Of a stretch of DNA of 64,000 nt, positions 16,768 through 39,877 are shown piece by piece. Source of the DNA: Cytophagaceae bacterium (GTDB lineage: Bacteria; Bacteroidota; Bacteroidia; Cytophagales; Spirosomataceae). Each line of letters starts with the position of its first letter. Position 1 is the stretch's first letter. The notes under the pieces were generated by a model. That model saw only the letters and a program-made list of their open reading frames with translations, did not search any database and was not told the origin of the DNA. The stretch is from the NCBI GenBank assembly GCA_027486845.1, contig JAIXOL010000068.1, positions 1 through 64,000 on the forward strand, given 5' to 3'. The position numbers and the translations under genes are program-made.

Positions 16768-17610
16768 CTATTTCATTTCAACGGTATTGATTAATGTACC
16801 TATACCTTCGATACTGATTGTGACGACATCACCTACTTCGAGTGTAAAATCATCGTGTGGAACAATACCTGTTCCTGTCATCAGAAAACAACCTTGCGGG
16901 AAAGACATTTCACGAAATAAATATTCTACCAAATCAGTATGCTTTCGTTTCATACGATTGATTTCAATAGAATCAGTAAAAAGTGGGATATCATACCGTG
17001 AGATTTCTAATGTGATTTTTGAATCATTATCAATCGGACTGCCAAAAATAGCAATACATGGCCCAATAGCTGCACTTTTATCATAAGATTTAGCTTGGGG
17101 CAAATAAAGGGGGTTTTCGCCCTCAATATCTCGCGAACTCATATCATTTCCGACTGTATAGCCCGAAATCTGTCCTTTTGAATTAATAAACAATGTAAGT
17201 TCTGGCTCTGGCACATTCCATTTAGAGTCTTTTCTGATTCTTACTGCCTGTCCAGACCCAACTACTCGCTGAGGAGCGGACTTAAAAAATAACTCTGGGC
17301 GTTCGGCGTCATAAACTCTATCATAAAAATTATCACCACCCGCTATTTTCGATTCTTCCATGCGTGCATTACGGCTACGCAGATACGTTACGCCCGATGC
17401 CCAAACTTCCTGCGACTGAATCGGTGCTTGCAAGCCATTATCTATTAGAGATTTATATTCAGCTGCTGCGGGTAATATTTGTATTTCTCGTTGCAACTCA
17501 AAAAATAAATCTTCCCGATTGATAAATAAGTCCCAATCTGTGTGTCGAGAGATATAGTAATGCCCTTTATGTTCGATAACGAACCCTTGTATGGTTTTAT
17601 AAATTTTCAT
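16768..17610 (-). CDS. FAH-fold 2-keto-3-deoxy-pentonate dehydratase-like protein
   Basis: The protein has 280 residues from the [10 protein letters not shown] start; an ATG 30 bases upstream would add an unconserved polar leader. The fumarylacetoacetate hydrolase fold carries metal ligands E135, E137 (VPEPEL) and probably D156. The segments [19 protein letters not shown] and [19 protein letters not shown] agree, from memory, with archaeal 2-keto-3-deoxy-D-arabinonate dehydratase (KdaD), which makes 2-oxoglutarate semialdehyde. With the next gene, it forms the last two steps of a Weimberg-type route to 2-oxoglutarate. An acylpyruvase-type hydrolase is the alternative. Confidence 0.82.
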
Positions 17611-17782
17611 GAAGTAAAATGTACATTTATTAGAACCCAATATTAATCAAAAAGAAGCATATTCGGTATTTTTTTATGACTACTTTTTTGAAATCGCCGT
17701 GCAAAAAACTAAAAGGTATCAAATTTTTTCAAAAAAGTTTGGAAATACAAACGAAAGTAAATTTCTTTGTCATAGAAACTGT

Positions 17783-17804
17783 TCGCATTTAGCGAATATT
17801 CGCA
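17783..17804. promoter_or_regulatory. Overlapping inverted repeats upstream of the ilvD leader
   Basis: TTCGC, GCGAA and TTCGC follow one another with spacers of five and two bases, so the middle GCGAA can pair with either flank. The right pair forms the perfect 12-base palindrome GCGAATATTCGC (17793-17804). It lies in the 378-base region divergent between the KdaD-like gene and ilvD and could be an operator for either. Confidence 0.4.
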
Positions 17805-17854
17805 ACTAGAGAATACTTTTTGATGAAAAATAATATAGTTCTAATTTACCCAGT

Positions 17855-17940
17855 TTTTCTTCTGCTCGTATAAAATGAGTGGAGAAGGATTTGTTACGAA
17901 CAACCAAAGCCTTCTTCACACCAAGTGAATAAGGCTTTTT
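17855..17940 (+). promoter_or_regulatory. ilvD leader: conserved stem plus attenuator-like terminator
   Basis: A stem made of CTTCT/AGAAG and GCTC/GAGT (17859-17887, two-base bulge) is followed by TTTGTTACGAA and then by a terminator: AAAGCCTT pairs with AAGGCTTT around TTCAC/GTGAA, one mismatch, then five T (17936-17940). The terminator stands about 50 bases before the ilvD start, so it would stop ilvD transcription unless relieved. A possible leader peptide starts at 17875 and ends inside the hairpin; it has a Leu-Leu pair but no strong run of Ile, Val or Leu codons. The same order of sequence blocks occurs before leuA. Confidence 0.7.
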
Positions 17941-17988: not shown

Positions 17989-19665
17989 ATGGAACTAAAT
18001 AAATTCAGTCGCACCCTTACGCAAGAAATTCATAACCCTGCAGCCAAAGCTATGCTTTATGGTATTGGTCTGACAGAAGAAGATATGCAAAAAGCCCAAA
18101 TCGGTATCGCAAGTACTGGTTATGAAGGAAATACTTGTAATATGCATCTTAATGGCTTGTCAGTTCACGTAAAGAAAGGCATCCAAGAAAACGGAATGGT
18201 GGGTTTGATTTTTCACACTATCGGTGTTTCGGATGGCATGACTAACGGTAATAACGGCATGAGTTATTCATTACCAAGTCGTGATATTATCGCAGATTCG
18301 ATTGAAGATATCGTGGCCGCTCAATGGTACGATGGTGTAATTGCCGTGGTTGGTTGTGATAAAAATATGCCTGGTGCAATGATGGCAATTGCTCGTTTGA
18401 ACCGCCCGGCAATGTTGGTTTATGGAGGAACTATCCGTACTGGATTGTATAAAGGCAAAAAACTTGATATAGTATCGGCTTTTGAAGCATTAGGTCAAAA
18501 ATTTGCTGGCACAATTTCTGATGAAGACTACGAAGGAGTTATAAAAAATGCAATTCCGGGTGCGGGTGCTTGCGGTGGAATGTACACTGCCAACACAATG
18601 GCCTCGTCAATGGAAGCAATGGGTTTGACTTTACCTAATTCATCAAGCTATCCTGCAACACATGAAGGCAAAAAAGCTGAGTGTCTTGCAATCGGAGCAG
18701 CTATGAAAAACATGTTGGAAAAAAATATTTGTCCACATGATATTATGACCCGCAAAGCATTCGAAAATGCCATGACAATGGTAATCGTCATGGGTGGTTC
18801 AACAAATGCTGTGCTACACTATTTGGCCATTGCAAGTGCCGCAGGTGTAGATTTTACACTAAAAGATATTCAAGATATTTCAGACCGCACGCCATTAATC
18901 GCTGATTTGAAACCATCAGGAAAATATTACATGGAAGATATGCTTGCCATTGGCGGTGTACCTGCATTGATGAAATATTTGCTCAAAAAAGGCCTTATAC
19001 ATGGCGATTGTATGACGATTACAGGTAAAACAATCGCAGAAAACTTAGAAGAAGTTCCAGATTTAGACTTTGATTTACAAAAAATTATTCAACCACTCGA
19101 ATCTCCAATCAAAGCAACTGGTCACTTACAAATTCTTTACGGAAATTTGGCTGAAGGTGGAGCCGTTGCAAAAATCACAGGTAAAGAAGGCGAGAAATTT
19201 GAAGGAATTGCTAAAGTCTGCGAACGTGAAGAAGATGTAATTGAATACTTAGAAAAAGGCGAAATCAAAGCTGGTCATGTAATTGTAATCAGAAATGAAG
19301 GGCCAAAAGGTGGACCTGGAATGCCGGAAATGCTTAAACCAACGTCGGCCGTTATGGGTGCAGGATTAGGAAATAGTGTAGCGATGATTACTGATGGGCG
19401 TTTTTCGGGTGGAACACACGGCTTTGTAGTTGGCCACATCACACCAGAGGCTTTTGAAGGCGGAACAATAGCTTTAGTGAAAGATGGAGATAAAATCACA
19501 ATTGATGCCGTTGATAATAAACTTATTTTGCACGTTTCAGATGAAGAATTAGCCGAACGTAAAGCTGCCTGGAAACAAATTCCATCAACATTTACGAGAG
19601 GGGTTTTAAGAAAATATATCAAAAACGTAAGTTCAGCCAGCGAAGGTTGTGTAACTGACTTGTAA
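17989..19665 (+). CDS. ilvD: Dihydroxy-acid dehydratase
   Basis: This 558-residue enzyme dehydrates 2,3-dihydroxy-isovalerate and -3-methylvalerate to the keto acids of valine and isoleucine. Iron-sulfur cysteines are C50 (EGNTCN), the one in [10 protein letters not shown], and that in [15 protein letters not shown] chose the MELNKFSRT start because an upstream ATG would add 13 unconserved residues. It leads ilvB, ilvN and ilvC with short gaps, which separates it from related sugar-acid dehydratases even though a pentonate module lies just upstream. An attenuator-like terminator precedes it. Confidence 0.96.
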
Positions 19666-23355: not shown

Positions 23356-24639
23356 ATGACATCAACAAACACTAAAAAAAATTCAGATTTTATTCTCCCC
23401 GATTTAGACAACATTTATCTCGCCGCCGAGCGATTGCAAGGAGTAGCTGTGCATACACCTTTGATGCACAATTTGAATCTTTCAGAATGTTATGGAGCAA
23501 ATATTTATCTTAAACGTGAAGATTTACAGGTTGTTCGTTCATACAAAATCAGAGGTGCCTATAATAAAATGGCGACCCTCTCGAAAGACCAACTTGCAAA
23601 GGGTGTAGTATGTGCAAGTGCGGGAAATCATGCACAAGGGCTTGCATATGCTTGTAGAAAATTGGAGGTCAATGGAACAATCTTTATGCCAACGACCACT
23701 CCTGCCCAAAAAATCAAACAAGTCGGAATGTTTGGGAAAGAGTTTGTAAAAATCGAACTTGTGGGCGATACTTACGATGACGCTTTTTATGCAGCTAAAA
23801 AATATTGTGAAGAACAAAATGCAACTTTTGTACATCCATTTGATGATTTGCAAGTGATGGAAGGACAAGGAACAGTCGGGCTTGAAATATTTAAAGACTC
23901 TAATTTCAAAATTGATTATTTGGTTTTTGCTATTGGTGGAGGTGGTTTAGCCTCGGGAGTATCGACAGTTTTTAAACAACTTTCGCCAAAAACCAAGCTT
24001 GTAGCAGTTGAACCACTTGGCTCGCCAACCATGAAGACAGCCTTGGAACAAGACCAAGTTGTTACGCTCAAAGAAATAGACACATTTGTAGATGGAGCAG
24101 CCGTAAAACGTGCAGGAGACTTAACTTTCCAAGTTTGTAAACAAAACCTCAATCACGAAATTTTGCTCATTCCCGAAGGAAAAGTTTGCTCAACAATTCT
24201 TCAGCTTTATAACGAAGAAGCCATCGTTGCCGAGCCAGCAGGAGCATTATCGGTTTCGGCACTCGACTTCATAAAAGATGAAATAAAAGGAAAAAATGTA
24301 GTTTGTATTATTGGTGGAGGCAATAATGATATTACCCGTACCGAAGAAATAAAAGAGCGTTCATTGCTTTACGAAGGACTAAAGCATTACTTCATTATAC
24401 GCTTCCCACAGCGAGCTGGGGCATTTAAAACTTTCTTGAATGATGTACTTAGCCCAACTGATAATATTGTATTTTTTGAATATTCAAAGAAAACCGCCCG
24501 TGAACGTGGACCCGCATTGGTAGGTATTGAGCTCAAACAACAATCTGATTTTCAGCCACTAATTGAGCGTATGAACCAAAACAATATTCAGTTCGAATAC
24601 ATCAACGACAAGCCCGAAATTTTCGAGTTTTTGATATAG
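23356..24639 (+). CDS. ilvA: Threonine ammonia-lyase (threonine deaminase)
   Basis: This 427-residue PLP enzyme turns threonine into 2-oxobutyrate, the start of isoleucine synthesis. The cofactor lysine is K64 in SYKIRGAYNKM, and the glycine loop is SAGNHAQG and later GGGGLASG. The C-terminal 90 residues hold a single ACT-like regulatory domain (YFIIRFPQRAGAFKTFLNDVL), making it the shorter one-domain regulatory type. The position after ilvDBNC supports the biosynthetic rather than the catabolic form. Confidence 0.94.
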   Translation: MTSTNTKKNSDFILPDLDNIYLAAERLQGVAVHTPLMHNLNLSECYGANIYLKREDLQVVRSYKIRGAYNKMATLSKDQLAKGVVCASAGNHAQGLAYACRKLEVNGTIFMPTTTPAQKIKQVGMFGKEFVKIELVGDTYDDAFYAAKKYCEEQNATFVHPFDDLQVMEGQGTVGLEIFKDSNFKIDYLVFAIGGGGLASGVSTVFKQLSPKTKLVAVEPLGSPTMKTALEQDQVVTLKEIDTFVDGAAVKRAGDLTFQVCKQNLNHEILLIPEGKVCSTILQLYNEEAIVAEPAGALSVSALDFIKDEIKGKNVVCIIGGGNNDITRTEEIKERSLLYEGLKHYFIIRFPQRAGAFKTFLNDVLSPTDNIVFFEYSKKTARERGPALVGIELKQQSDFQPLIERMNQNNIQFEYINDKPEIFEFLI

Positions 24640-24711: not shown

Positions 24712-26751
24712 ATGTATTTACTTTTTATAGCATTATTTCTTGTTTTTCTTTGGCAAATTCATCGGAATACCTCGTGTATTTCCGAAAGCCTCAACGACTA
24801 TTTAATCAAGTATTTCGTTGGATTGGTTTCTTGCATTATTCCAACAGGCTTCTTTTTATCTGAACTCAACCAACTTGGTCATGCGGTATCTTGGGGTTTA
24901 GGCATAAACTTTTCGGCTTTATTATTTTATTTCTTTTTTACAAAAATCTCCGAAAACCACCAATATTCGCTTTTTAATTCCCTTAAAAATATATCAAAAA
25001 GCATTTTTAACATTTGGCAGACCCAAGGTTTTTTAGGCAAAGCTATATTTGGAATATTAGGTTTAGGCTTAGTAATTGTCAGTATTTTAAATTTGGGAAT
25101 ATTTTTCTTAACTTATCCTAACGAATGGGATAGCATGACTGGGCATTTGGTAAAATGTGCTTTATACCTCCAAAATGGTAACATGAATCGCCTACAAGGC
25201 ACAACTTGGACGATTGATTTTTACCCAAATTCATTGCCAACTTTACAGATGTTTGGCTTTCATCTTTTTGGTGAGCAAGGATTTAAAGTTATTCATTACT
25301 TATCTTATTGGCTTTTTGCAATATCAGCTTACGGAATAACTTTTAAAATAACTAAAAGCAAATCTGCCTCCTTACTTGTTTTTTTACTTTCAGCTCTACT
25401 TCCAACGGCATTAGTACAAGCGACTACCACTGAAACTGACATCGTTTTGTCCGCCTATTTAGGATGTTTGACCTATTTCATGTTTTCGTTTAAAGACAAG
25501 CCTTCTCAGCTCAATGTTTCGCTTATTGCATTGATGTCAGGTATTTGGATTGGACATAAAGTTACCTTCTTACTGATTGCACCAGCAGCAATGGTTGTAG
25601 CGTTTCATACGGTTTTGCTAAAAAAGCAGTTTTATCAACACATCAAACTGTTTATAATTGTATTTATCACGGCAATAAGCATTTATGCCCTGCCAACTGG
25701 CTATATCGGTAATTTAAAAGAATCTAAAAAATTTAGTTTGGGAAGCCTTTCTGCACCCCAAATGGTTATGCAATGGCACGGCATTGAGCATTATACAGGA
25801 AAAGAAAAAATCAAAAACTTAACATACAATATTGGTCGCTATTCTTCTGATTTTTTAAATATGGATGGACTTAGAAGTTCGCCTTTAGGTAAAGAATTAA
25901 ATGATATTGTACGATATTGGCCAAATAAAGCATTTAGGGAATTGAATCTTGAGGGTGGACACTTCACGGTTGTTTCATATTTTTCTTTTGAACATCCGGT
26001 AAGATTTTATCTCGAAAGACCTTTTTGGGGATTTATTGGCTTTGGCTTGATACTGCCATGCATCTTTTTTTTGGGTTGGAAAGTTTTGCAAAATTTTAAG
26101 AAATTAAATAGTGTAGAAAAAAGCTTTTTGGTACTTGGTTTTGCAGCAATATTACACTTTTTATCGCTGTGTTATTCAGCTCCTTATGACCCTATCAAGG
26201 CTCGTTATTTTCTGAATATGGCGGTTTGGTGCATGCCGATACTTTCGTTAATTGTCTTATCTTGGTTTCAGAGAAAATCAATCCTTAAAAACATATTCTT
26301 GATAAGCATTTGCTGTTTAATTGTTCTTTCGGCAATACCTGCAATTCTATACTTGCGTATTCATCCTGTTTTTGAGGAGAAAAATATCTTTAATACAACT
26401 CGTTTAGAATTGATTATGATTGCTCGACCTAATGTATACGAGGCCTACAAAAAATTTGACGAATTAGTACCGAAAGATGCCATAGTCGCACTCGGAACCC
26501 AACAAGAACACGAAGATTTTGAATATCCACTTTGGGGAGAAGACTTTAAACGAAAACTTATACCGATTCATCCATTTAGAAGTCTCGTAAAACCTATTCC
26601 TGCCGAAGCACAGTATTTATTTTATTCAAAAGGAGTTATTCCGTTTCAAGAAGGAGATATTCAGCTCAATTCTATCATTACCAAATCGCATATACCTGTC
26701 AATGATAGTGAGTTTTATTTAAGAAAGTTAACCCCCAAAGTGGAATTTTAG
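24712..26751 (+). CDS. Large multi-span membrane protein, possible GT-C glycosyltransferase
   Basis: This 679-residue protein has about a dozen hydrophobic segments and a soluble C-terminal part (about 570-679). The first long extracytoplasmic loop holds the acidic segment YPNEWDSMTGHLVKCALYL; an acidic residue in that loop is the catalytic mark of lipid-linked GT-C enzymes such as ArnT and PMT families. I cannot name a family with confidence. A role in transferring a sugar from a polyprenyl-linked donor is inferred from topology and from the sugar-modifying neighbours. The next gene starts 5 bases after its stop. Confidence 0.65.
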   Translation: MYLLFIALFLVFLWQIHRNTSCISESLNDYLIKYFVGLVSCIIPTGFFLSELNQLGHAVSWGLGINFSALLFYFFFTKISENHQYSLFNSLKNISKSIFNIWQTQGFLGKAIFGILGLGLVIVSILNLGIFFLTYPNEWDSMTGHLVKCALYLQNGNMNRLQGTTWTIDFYPNSLPTLQMFGFHLFGEQGFKVIHYLSYWLFAISAYGITFKITKSKSASLLVFLLSALLPTALVQATTTETDIVLSAYLGCLTYFMFSFKDKPSQLNVSLIALMSGIWIGHKVTFLLIAPAAMVVAFHTVLLKKQFYQHIKLFIIVFITAISIYALPTGYIGNLKESKKFSLGSLSAPQMVMQWHGIEHYTGKEKIKNLTYNIGRYSSDFLNMDGLRSSPLGKELNDIVRYWPNKAFRELNLEGGHFTVVSYFSFEHPVRFYLERPFWGFIGFGLILPCIFFLGWKVLQNFKKLNSVEKSFLVLGFAAILHFLSLCYSAPYDPIKARYFLNMAVWCMPILSLIVLSWFQRKSILKNIFLISICCLIVLSAIPAILYLRIHPVFEEKNIFNTTRLELIMIARPNVYEAYKKFDELVPKDAIVALGTQQEHEDFEYPLWGEDFKRKLIPIHPFRSLVKPIPAEAQYLFYSKGVIPFQEGDIQLNSIITKSHIPVNDSEFYLRKLTPKVEF

Positions 26752-38510: not shown

Positions 38511-39653
38511 TTAAGCCCTCATTAACTTCACCAAATCTTTATCATTGACTTCTTTAATTTGGTCGGCTAAGTCAAGGAAACGCTTGTAAGTATCATCTAA
38601 TAAAGGTTTTTCAAGTTTAAAACCAAGCATTTCGAGGCGATGCTTCAATGCATGGCGACCGCTTCTGGCAGTCAAAACAATCATTGATTTATCAACACCA
38701 ACTTCGAGCGGATTGATAATTTCGTAAGTATCAGTATGTTTCAAAAAACCATCTTGGTGAATACCCGACGAGTGAGCAAAAGCATTACGCCCAACTATTG
38801 CCTTATTGGCTTGTACCTGCATACGCATTGTTTCTGAAACCAATTTACTCATCGGAAATAGTTTCGTGCTATCAATATCTGTATGAAAACCAAGATTTTT
38901 ATGCACTTTCAAAATCATCGCAACTTCCTCCAACGAAGTATTTCCAGCTCTTTCTCCAATGCCGTTGATTGTTACCTCTACTTGCCTTGCTCCCGCCCTG
39001 ATTCCCGCAATCGTATTGGCTGTTGCCATGCCCAAATCATTATGATTATGCATCGAAAGAATTGCTTTGTCAACGTTTGGTACATTGTTCATTAAATAAT
39101 TAATGCGGTCAAACATATCGTTTGGTAAAACATACCCCGTTGTATCAGGAAGATTCACCACCGTAGCACCTGCTTTGATGACACTTTCGGTCAATCTTGC
39201 CAAAAACTCTAAATCAGCACGGCCAGCATCTTCGGCATAAAACTCAACATCATCAACCAAGTTTCTGGCATGTTTTACAGCATCAATTGCTTGCTCAATG
39301 ATTGCATCTCGGTTACTATTAAATTTATGTTTAATGTGAATATCCGATGCACCAATTCCTGTATGAATACGAGGGCGTTTGGCAAATTTCAATGCTTCGC
39401 CAGCGGCATCAATATCGCCTTTTACAGCACGTGATAATGCACAAACTGTTGGCTCGGTAACGGCTTTAGAAACCTCTACAACAGAACGAAAATCGCCCGG
39501 ACTCGATACTGGAAATCCTGCTTCGATGATATCAACCCCCAGCTTTTCAAGTTCTTTAGCAATCATTACTTTTTCGTCAGTCGTTAACTGACAACCCGGT
39601 ACTTGCTCGCCATCTCGCAAAGTAGTGTCAAAAACATAAATTTTATCGCTCAT
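38511..39653 (-). CDS. leuA: 2-isopropylmalate synthase, short form without the regulatory domain
   Basis: This 380-residue protein is the catalytic TIM barrel of the LeuA/homocitrate-synthase family: [13 protein letters not shown] (9-21), the metal histidines in [26 protein letters not shown], and a short linker region. It condenses 2-oxoisovalerate with acetyl-CoA in leucine synthesis. The roughly 110-residue C-terminal domain that binds leucine in classical LeuA is missing, so feedback inhibition is not expected. Homocitrate or citramalate synthase are alternatives, but a leucine-type leader supports LeuA. leuB, leuC and leuD are not in the window. Confidence 0.85.
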
Positions 39654-39705: not shown

Positions 39706-39795
39706 AAAAAAGCCCTTTCTTAAGTTTATAAGAAAGGGCTTTCGTATATACAAAATCTCCATTTCTCACACCAACAGGTTGAGTAGAAGGAGAAT
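39706..39795 (-). promoter_or_regulatory. leuA leader: conserved stem plus perfect attenuator-like terminator
   Basis: Reading the minus strand, TCTCC/GGAGA encloses CTCAACC/GGT-TGAG (39756-39793), then TTTTGTATATACGAA, then a perfect 14-pair terminator with a six-base loop (39709-39742) and six T (39706-39711). The terminator points into leuA and lies about 55 bases before its start codon. The order of the blocks YTTCTRCTC, GAG, TGGAGA, TTTGT, ACGAA and AGCC terminator matches the ilvD leader. No leader peptide with a Leu run is seen. Confidence 0.75.
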
Positions 39796-39846: not shown

Positions 39847-39877
39847 CAAATTTAGACAAATATTTTTTTTAGACAAA
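39847..39877 (-). promoter_or_regulatory. Promoter of leuA
   Basis: On the minus strand TTTG, exactly 19 bases, then TAAATTTG, a full match to the Bacteroidota promoter consensus. A start about 7 bases on gives a leader of roughly 185 bases that contains the conserved stem and the terminator. Confidence 0.75.

Follow-up and report, generated by a model that had tools for sequence, protein, structure and literature searches.

The window analysed here, a 64,000-nucleotide stretch of DNA from a Cytophagaceae bacterium (contig JAIXOL010000068.1), carries ilvD at the head of a gene block and leuA on the opposite strand. An earlier note on this DNA had described an attenuator-like leader common to these two branched-chain amino acid genes and, having seen no leader peptide in which Ile, Val or Leu codons form a run, had suggested that the leader may sense something other than ribosome stalling. 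The locus raises the question of what such leaders would respond to, and the following features bear on it.

17989-19665, plus strand: ilvD, heading the block ilvD-ilvB-ilvN-ilvC-ilvA, which ends at 24639
17823-17873, plus strand: leader peptide ORF of ilvD, MKNNIVLIYPVFLLLV*, with ILV-rich counterparts in relatives
17859-17867, plus strand: control codons CTT CTG CTC of the ilvD leader (region 1)
17879-17888, plus strand: region 2 of ilvD, 5′ side of the antiterminator, forming 10 pairs with region 3 (covariation)
17910-17919, plus strand: region 3 of ilvD, common to antiterminator and terminator (folds and covariation)
17906-17938, plus strand: predicted intrinsic terminator of ilvD, formed by regions 3 and 4 and leading into a T-rich stretch (fold and covariation)
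38511-39653, minus strand: leuA, 2-isopropylmalate synthase, 380 residues
39766-39822, minus strand: leader peptide ORF of leuA, MKHSSIANSILLLLNLLV*, with a TTG start and counterparts in relatives
39759-39768, minus strand: region 2 of leuA, starting at the leader stop codon (covariation)
39709-39743, minus strand: predicted terminator of leuA, with region 3 at 39729-39738 (folds and covariation)

The closest named relatives of IlvD, at 97% identity, are encoded by metagenome-assembled genomes labelled Emticicia in one case and Cytophagaceae in the other, a comparison from which the window's own genome was possibly excluded. Directly 3′ of ilvA, an ORF of 679 residues (24712-26751, plus strand) had no match in Pfam or NCBIfam.

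Each window leader contains a short ORF in which branched-chain codons are abundant, and the YTTCTRCTC block, which was judged the most alike between the two leaders, is the run of Leu control codons itself (CTT CTG CTC or CTT CTA CTC). A ribosome-mediated transcription attenuator should contain such an ORF, with consecutive codons for the end product of the pathway. The codon run thought to be missing is thus carried by both leaders, the interval 17855-17940 given for the ilvD leader having excluded the ORF start at 17823, and the idea that something other than ribosome stalling is sensed finds no support. The leuA ORF requires a TTG start, which counts against the attenuation reading.

The two-part stem and the terminator aimed into ilvD that had been placed at 17855-17940 are present, with alternative pairings. 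A simple consensus scan revealed no plus-strand terminator before ilvD, presumably because the stem contains a mismatch; folding reveals one. In both leaders, region 3 pairs either with region 2, forming the antiterminator, or with region 4, forming the terminator; such mutual exclusion is the other property looked for in a ribosome-mediated transcription attenuator. When the RNA was folded as ending at region 3 with a ribosome over the control codons, the antiterminator formed in both leaders. With the ribosome at the stop codon, the antiterminator of leuA was lost, and that of ilvD was shortened, its energy rising from -16.5 to -7.5 kcal/mol, which counts against the reading. When region 4 was included, the antiterminator was favoured in the stalled ilvD RNA and the terminator formed with the ribosome at the stop codon. 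The best fold of the stalled leuA RNA with region 4 was still the terminator; this counts against attenuation and suggests that leuA depends on which helix folds first. The blocks listed by the earlier note do occur, in the same order, in the leuA leader (minus strand, 39.7-39.8 kb). Its by-eye alignment was right in block order and partly wrong in register, as region 2 of ilvD, GTGGAGAAGG, matches GTGAGAAATGG of leuA and not the leuA TGGAGA. Among relatives there is weak conservation of TTTGT and none of ACGAA.

These observations point to the following mechanism. A ribosome would trail RNA polymerase while translating the short leader peptide. With charged tRNA-Leu in short supply (in the ilvD leader, tRNA-Ile or tRNA-Val as well), the ribosome would stall at the control codons and leave region 2 free, so that 2:3 pairing would block the terminator and the operon would be transcribed. 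If charged tRNA were plentiful, the ribosome would reach the stop codon, beside or inside region 2, and cover it; region 3 would then pair with region 4 and transcription would end before the gene. Stalling, transcription-translation coupling and the direction of the response are what we infer here. Judged from sequence, the ilvD and leuA leaders are very probably classic ribosome-mediated transcription attenuators, and branched-chain amino acids are probably synthesized only when their shortage makes ribosomes stall.

The codon content of the leaders differs with the gene that follows. Ile and Val make up 0.66 of the ILV residues before ilvD versus 0.30 before leuA (p = 4e-13). Ile, Val and Leu are about equally frequent in the ilvD peptides (0.19, 0.20 and 0.19 of residues), and the leuA peptides contain mainly Leu (0.29; Ile 0.09, Val 0.03). 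In the window's genus, TTA and TTG account for 2 of 55 leader Leu codons versus about 59% of 698 Leu codons in 16 window genes, a tally whose leuA part spans 6 of 7 genomes and whose codons are not independent because the leaders are related; pairing needs may contribute in part to this low TTR share. Among 12 genomes searched, the window's own included, WWW leaders preceded trpE in 9 of the 11 upstreams examined, a count without a shuffle comparison. The own-genome trpE (L366, from 1292) is preceded by the leader ORF MTQYSNIVKIWWWRPAK and then a terminator, an arrangement that looks like the same attenuator design applied to trp. No leader was found in 600 bases upstream of hisG in 12 genomes, where hisG is possibly not the first gene of its operon; this counts against the attenuation reading.

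We searched 101 genomes of the window's family for related leaders. An ilvD match above the cut-off was present in 97 of them, and 91 upstreams, including two short ones of 73 and 428 bases, were taken from 89 genomes; leuA was matched in 99 of the 101, yielding 90 upstreams. With a leader defined by at least 5 of 8 residues being ILV, plus a terminator, ilvD was preceded by such an arrangement in 42/91 copies, compared with 3/91 on the opposite strand and 0/455 shuffled sequences. The corresponding figures for leuA were 30/90, 0/90 and 3/450. A looser definition (4 of 8 ILV, a gap of 18-38 bases, second copies G053b and G016b dropped) gave 42/89 for ilvD and 44/90 for leuA, with both present in 28 genomes; one ilvD case (G016) proved false on inspection, leaving 41 of the 42. 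An ilvD or leuA leader was thus undetected in about half of the family, which counts against the attenuation reading. Leaders can escape detection: a covariance model places sites before ilvD in genomes outside the upstream set (for example G020), one genome (G003) carries the missed leader MNQAVHLVILLVSIQ, and a leuA leader plain by eye in G085 was skipped by the automatic step. In two genomes, G095 and G075 (L072 and L068), ilvD is preceded by a tandem pair of ILV-rich leader ORFs, and a separate terminator accompanies each of them.

In a phylum sample, ilvD was strongly matched in 86 of 118 genomes, and 70 upstreams from 69 genomes were taken, 30 from the search output and 40 picked by hand. 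An ILV-rich leader with a terminator was found in 15/70, versus 0/70 on the opposite strand and 1/350 shuffles. By family, it occurred in 8 of 11 upstreams examined in f22, 2 of 4 in f2 and 3 of 8 in f7; the two leaders of f16 have gaps above 50 bases and may be due to chance. The attenuator is best read as patchy in the window's family and as present in some other Bacteroidota too.

To examine the helices, we aligned 62 non-redundant leaders (30 ilvD and 32 leuA). Two-sided changes were seen at 9 of 10 antiterminator pairs and 10 of 12 terminator pairs, with 85.2% of cells paired versus 76.2% after shuffling in the former and 89.7% versus 78.9% in the latter, figures somewhat favoured by drawing the structures from the window's ilvD row and coming from mutually related leaders. 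Slid registers left less than 62% paired. An alignment-free permutation test on region 2/region 3 duplex energies gave the same picture: the mean for a leader's own duplex was -18.6 kcal/mol versus -14.0 across genomes for ilvD (32 leaders) and -16.3 versus -13.8 for leuA (35 leaders), and in each case 0 of 2000 permutations were as low. Comparison across genomes shows the leader peptide, its codon content and two exclusive pairings with covariation, and bears out the shared attenuator-like leader of the earlier note.

A covariance model built from the 62 leaders scored the two window sites at 73.4 and 60.9 bits, matches by construction because both were included; the next-best window match scored 29.1 bits. 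The model matched 86 of the 101 family genomes at E ≤ 0.01, which is not a tally of attenuators since the 62 training sites lie in the same genomes and some matches are gene-end terminators. Compensating changes in both helices and related leaders in many genomes accord with the shared leader of the earlier note. The window's own genome had 8 matches, two being the window sites; of three more that were read, two resemble gene-end terminators, and the match on C7 is preceded by a short ORF. Three other matches (L387, L388 and L394 in G005, G036 and G001) have leader ORFs with Leu and Trp before a transporter gene, which belongs to the EamA family by Pfam after the first two and by resemblance only after the third.

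Structure and a terminator ahead of amino acid genes would also fit a riboswitch or a tRNA-binding leader of the T-box kind, one that senses an amino acid or a tRNA itself and needs no translation. Rfam 15 at the gathering score returned no match for the window and 11 related loci, and with E-values up to 10 the ilvD leader gave only chance-like matches below threshold. Moreover, codon content and two exclusive helices are kept in place of a conserved aptamer-like core, and we regard direct sensing as very improbable. The short ORF upstream of the gene might instead act through translation of that gene, by reinitiation or coupling, the hairpin being incidental. The accessible part of PMC4833913, which cites Lopatovskaya et al. 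2010, proposes reinitiation at leader genes for bacteria including Bacteroidetes, with about 11-14 bases from stop to start. By contrast, more than 100 bases and a terminator separate the leader stop from the ilvD start, and both terminator and antiterminator covary, making this explanation just as improbable. That ordinary terminators are preceded by chance ORFs, as the several further model matches resembling plain gene-end terminators and the presence of a leader peptide in only part of the family might suggest, is scarcely credible given the shuffle and opposite-strand controls and the covariation of an antiterminator, a helix that plain terminators do not need.

Ribosome-mediated attenuation is thus the preferred reading, and its mechanism is already known. 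The enterobacterial leu and ilvGMEDA operons have leader-peptide attenuators, in which a short ORF with runs of end-product codons and exclusive antiterminator and terminator helices precede the biosynthetic genes. The window's leaders resemble these in all three respects. Unlike them, the leaders described here have no Rfam match, the stop codon lies within or overlaps the antiterminator helix in 38 of 62 leaders, and the 1:2 protector (pause) hairpin is weakly supported: it was seen in folds of both window leaders, and over the 62 its mean energy was -8.71 versus -8.00 when shuffled, better in 39, which counts against the reading.

Within the same phylum, the amino acid operons of Flavobacterium psychrophilum were reported to show strong clues of attenuation by leader peptides, the proposed mechanism and the place before biosynthesis operons being alike; the accessible part of that source (PMC9723704) names neither operon nor peptide, and overlap with ilv/leu may exist. 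Leader-like short ORFs in B. thetaiotaomicron are mentioned in the part of PMC7366714 that was available. The ilvD motif (WRC-18-2) also precedes ilvD, with a terminator in some members; by contrast, the accessible text of PMC8632094 presents it as a weak candidate riboswitch that shows little covariation and is restricted to Veillonella. In the open literature covered (titles and beginnings of abstracts, with subscription papers mostly outside), we recognised no ilv/leu attenuators for the window's family, and as far as seen the ilvD and leuA members are new.

Upstream of the ilvD leader, a second kind of control may operate; a possible promoter box of leuA is listed with its elements.

17792-17803: palindrome GCGAATATTCGC, putative operator
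17775-17786: second, weaker putative operator, GAAACTGTTCGC, a copy placed 17 bases upstream of the main palindrome
39847-39854, minus strand: TAAATTTG, possible -7 box of the leuA promoter, fitting the TAnnTTTG consensus of PMC9723704

The palindrome pattern GCGAAWWTTCRC occurs at most 400 bases upstream of the match start in 65/90 ilvD and 34/90 leuA upstreams, and the weaker copy at its 17-base upstream spacing stands out among relatives. Exact palindrome sites numbered 1-6 per genome in 8 genomes, compared with 0-3 for a reversed control pattern. Where an exact TAnnTTTG box, the promoter consensus named in the accessible part of PMC9723704, was found, it mostly ended 18-22 bases upstream of the palindrome, with exceptions at three sites (2, 2 and 50 bases); many sites had no exact box. 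The palindrome also lies close before ilvD in genomes without a detected leader, and the window's leuA leader has none. Its dyad form suggests a DNA-binding repressor, and the position of GCGAAWWTTCGC near the promoter suggests that it is a candidate repressor site as well, beside the attenuator. A divergent LysR-type regulator was considered as its reader and rejected, the neighbour at 16768-17640 being a fumarylacetoacetate-hydrolase-like protein; no regulator gene was recognised in the ORF lists around four further sites of the palindrome (L184, L187, L192 and L196).

The 380 residues of LeuA aligned with only the first ~380 positions of synthase models of 494-523 positions. Pfam shows no C-terminal regulatory domain in LeuA, so leucine feedback on the enzyme may be missing. 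Taking these elements together, we tentatively propose, as a possibility we hold rather doubtful, that the window's family often uses a reduced two-helix switch, in which the stop codon forms part of the antiterminator, the terminating ribosome would free the terminator and the 1:2 hairpin would be unneeded, layered on tandem operators that a putative repressor would bind close to where transcription starts. For leuA, whose enzyme apparently has no regulatory domain of the usual kind, the attenuator might be the main leucine control.

Leader-peptide attenuation requires tight coupling between the ribosome and RNA polymerase, and to our knowledge little has been described of amino acid regulation in Bacteroidota, leader-peptide attenuation included. 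Shine-Dalgarno sequences are absent in Flavobacterium according to the accessible part of PMC9723704. The palindrome adjoining the leaders hints at a further putative regulator of branched-chain amino acid synthesis. The ilv and leu leaders would be ready leucine-responsive parts, and the ilv, leu and trp attenuators would make ribosome-polymerase coupling testable in Bacteroidota.
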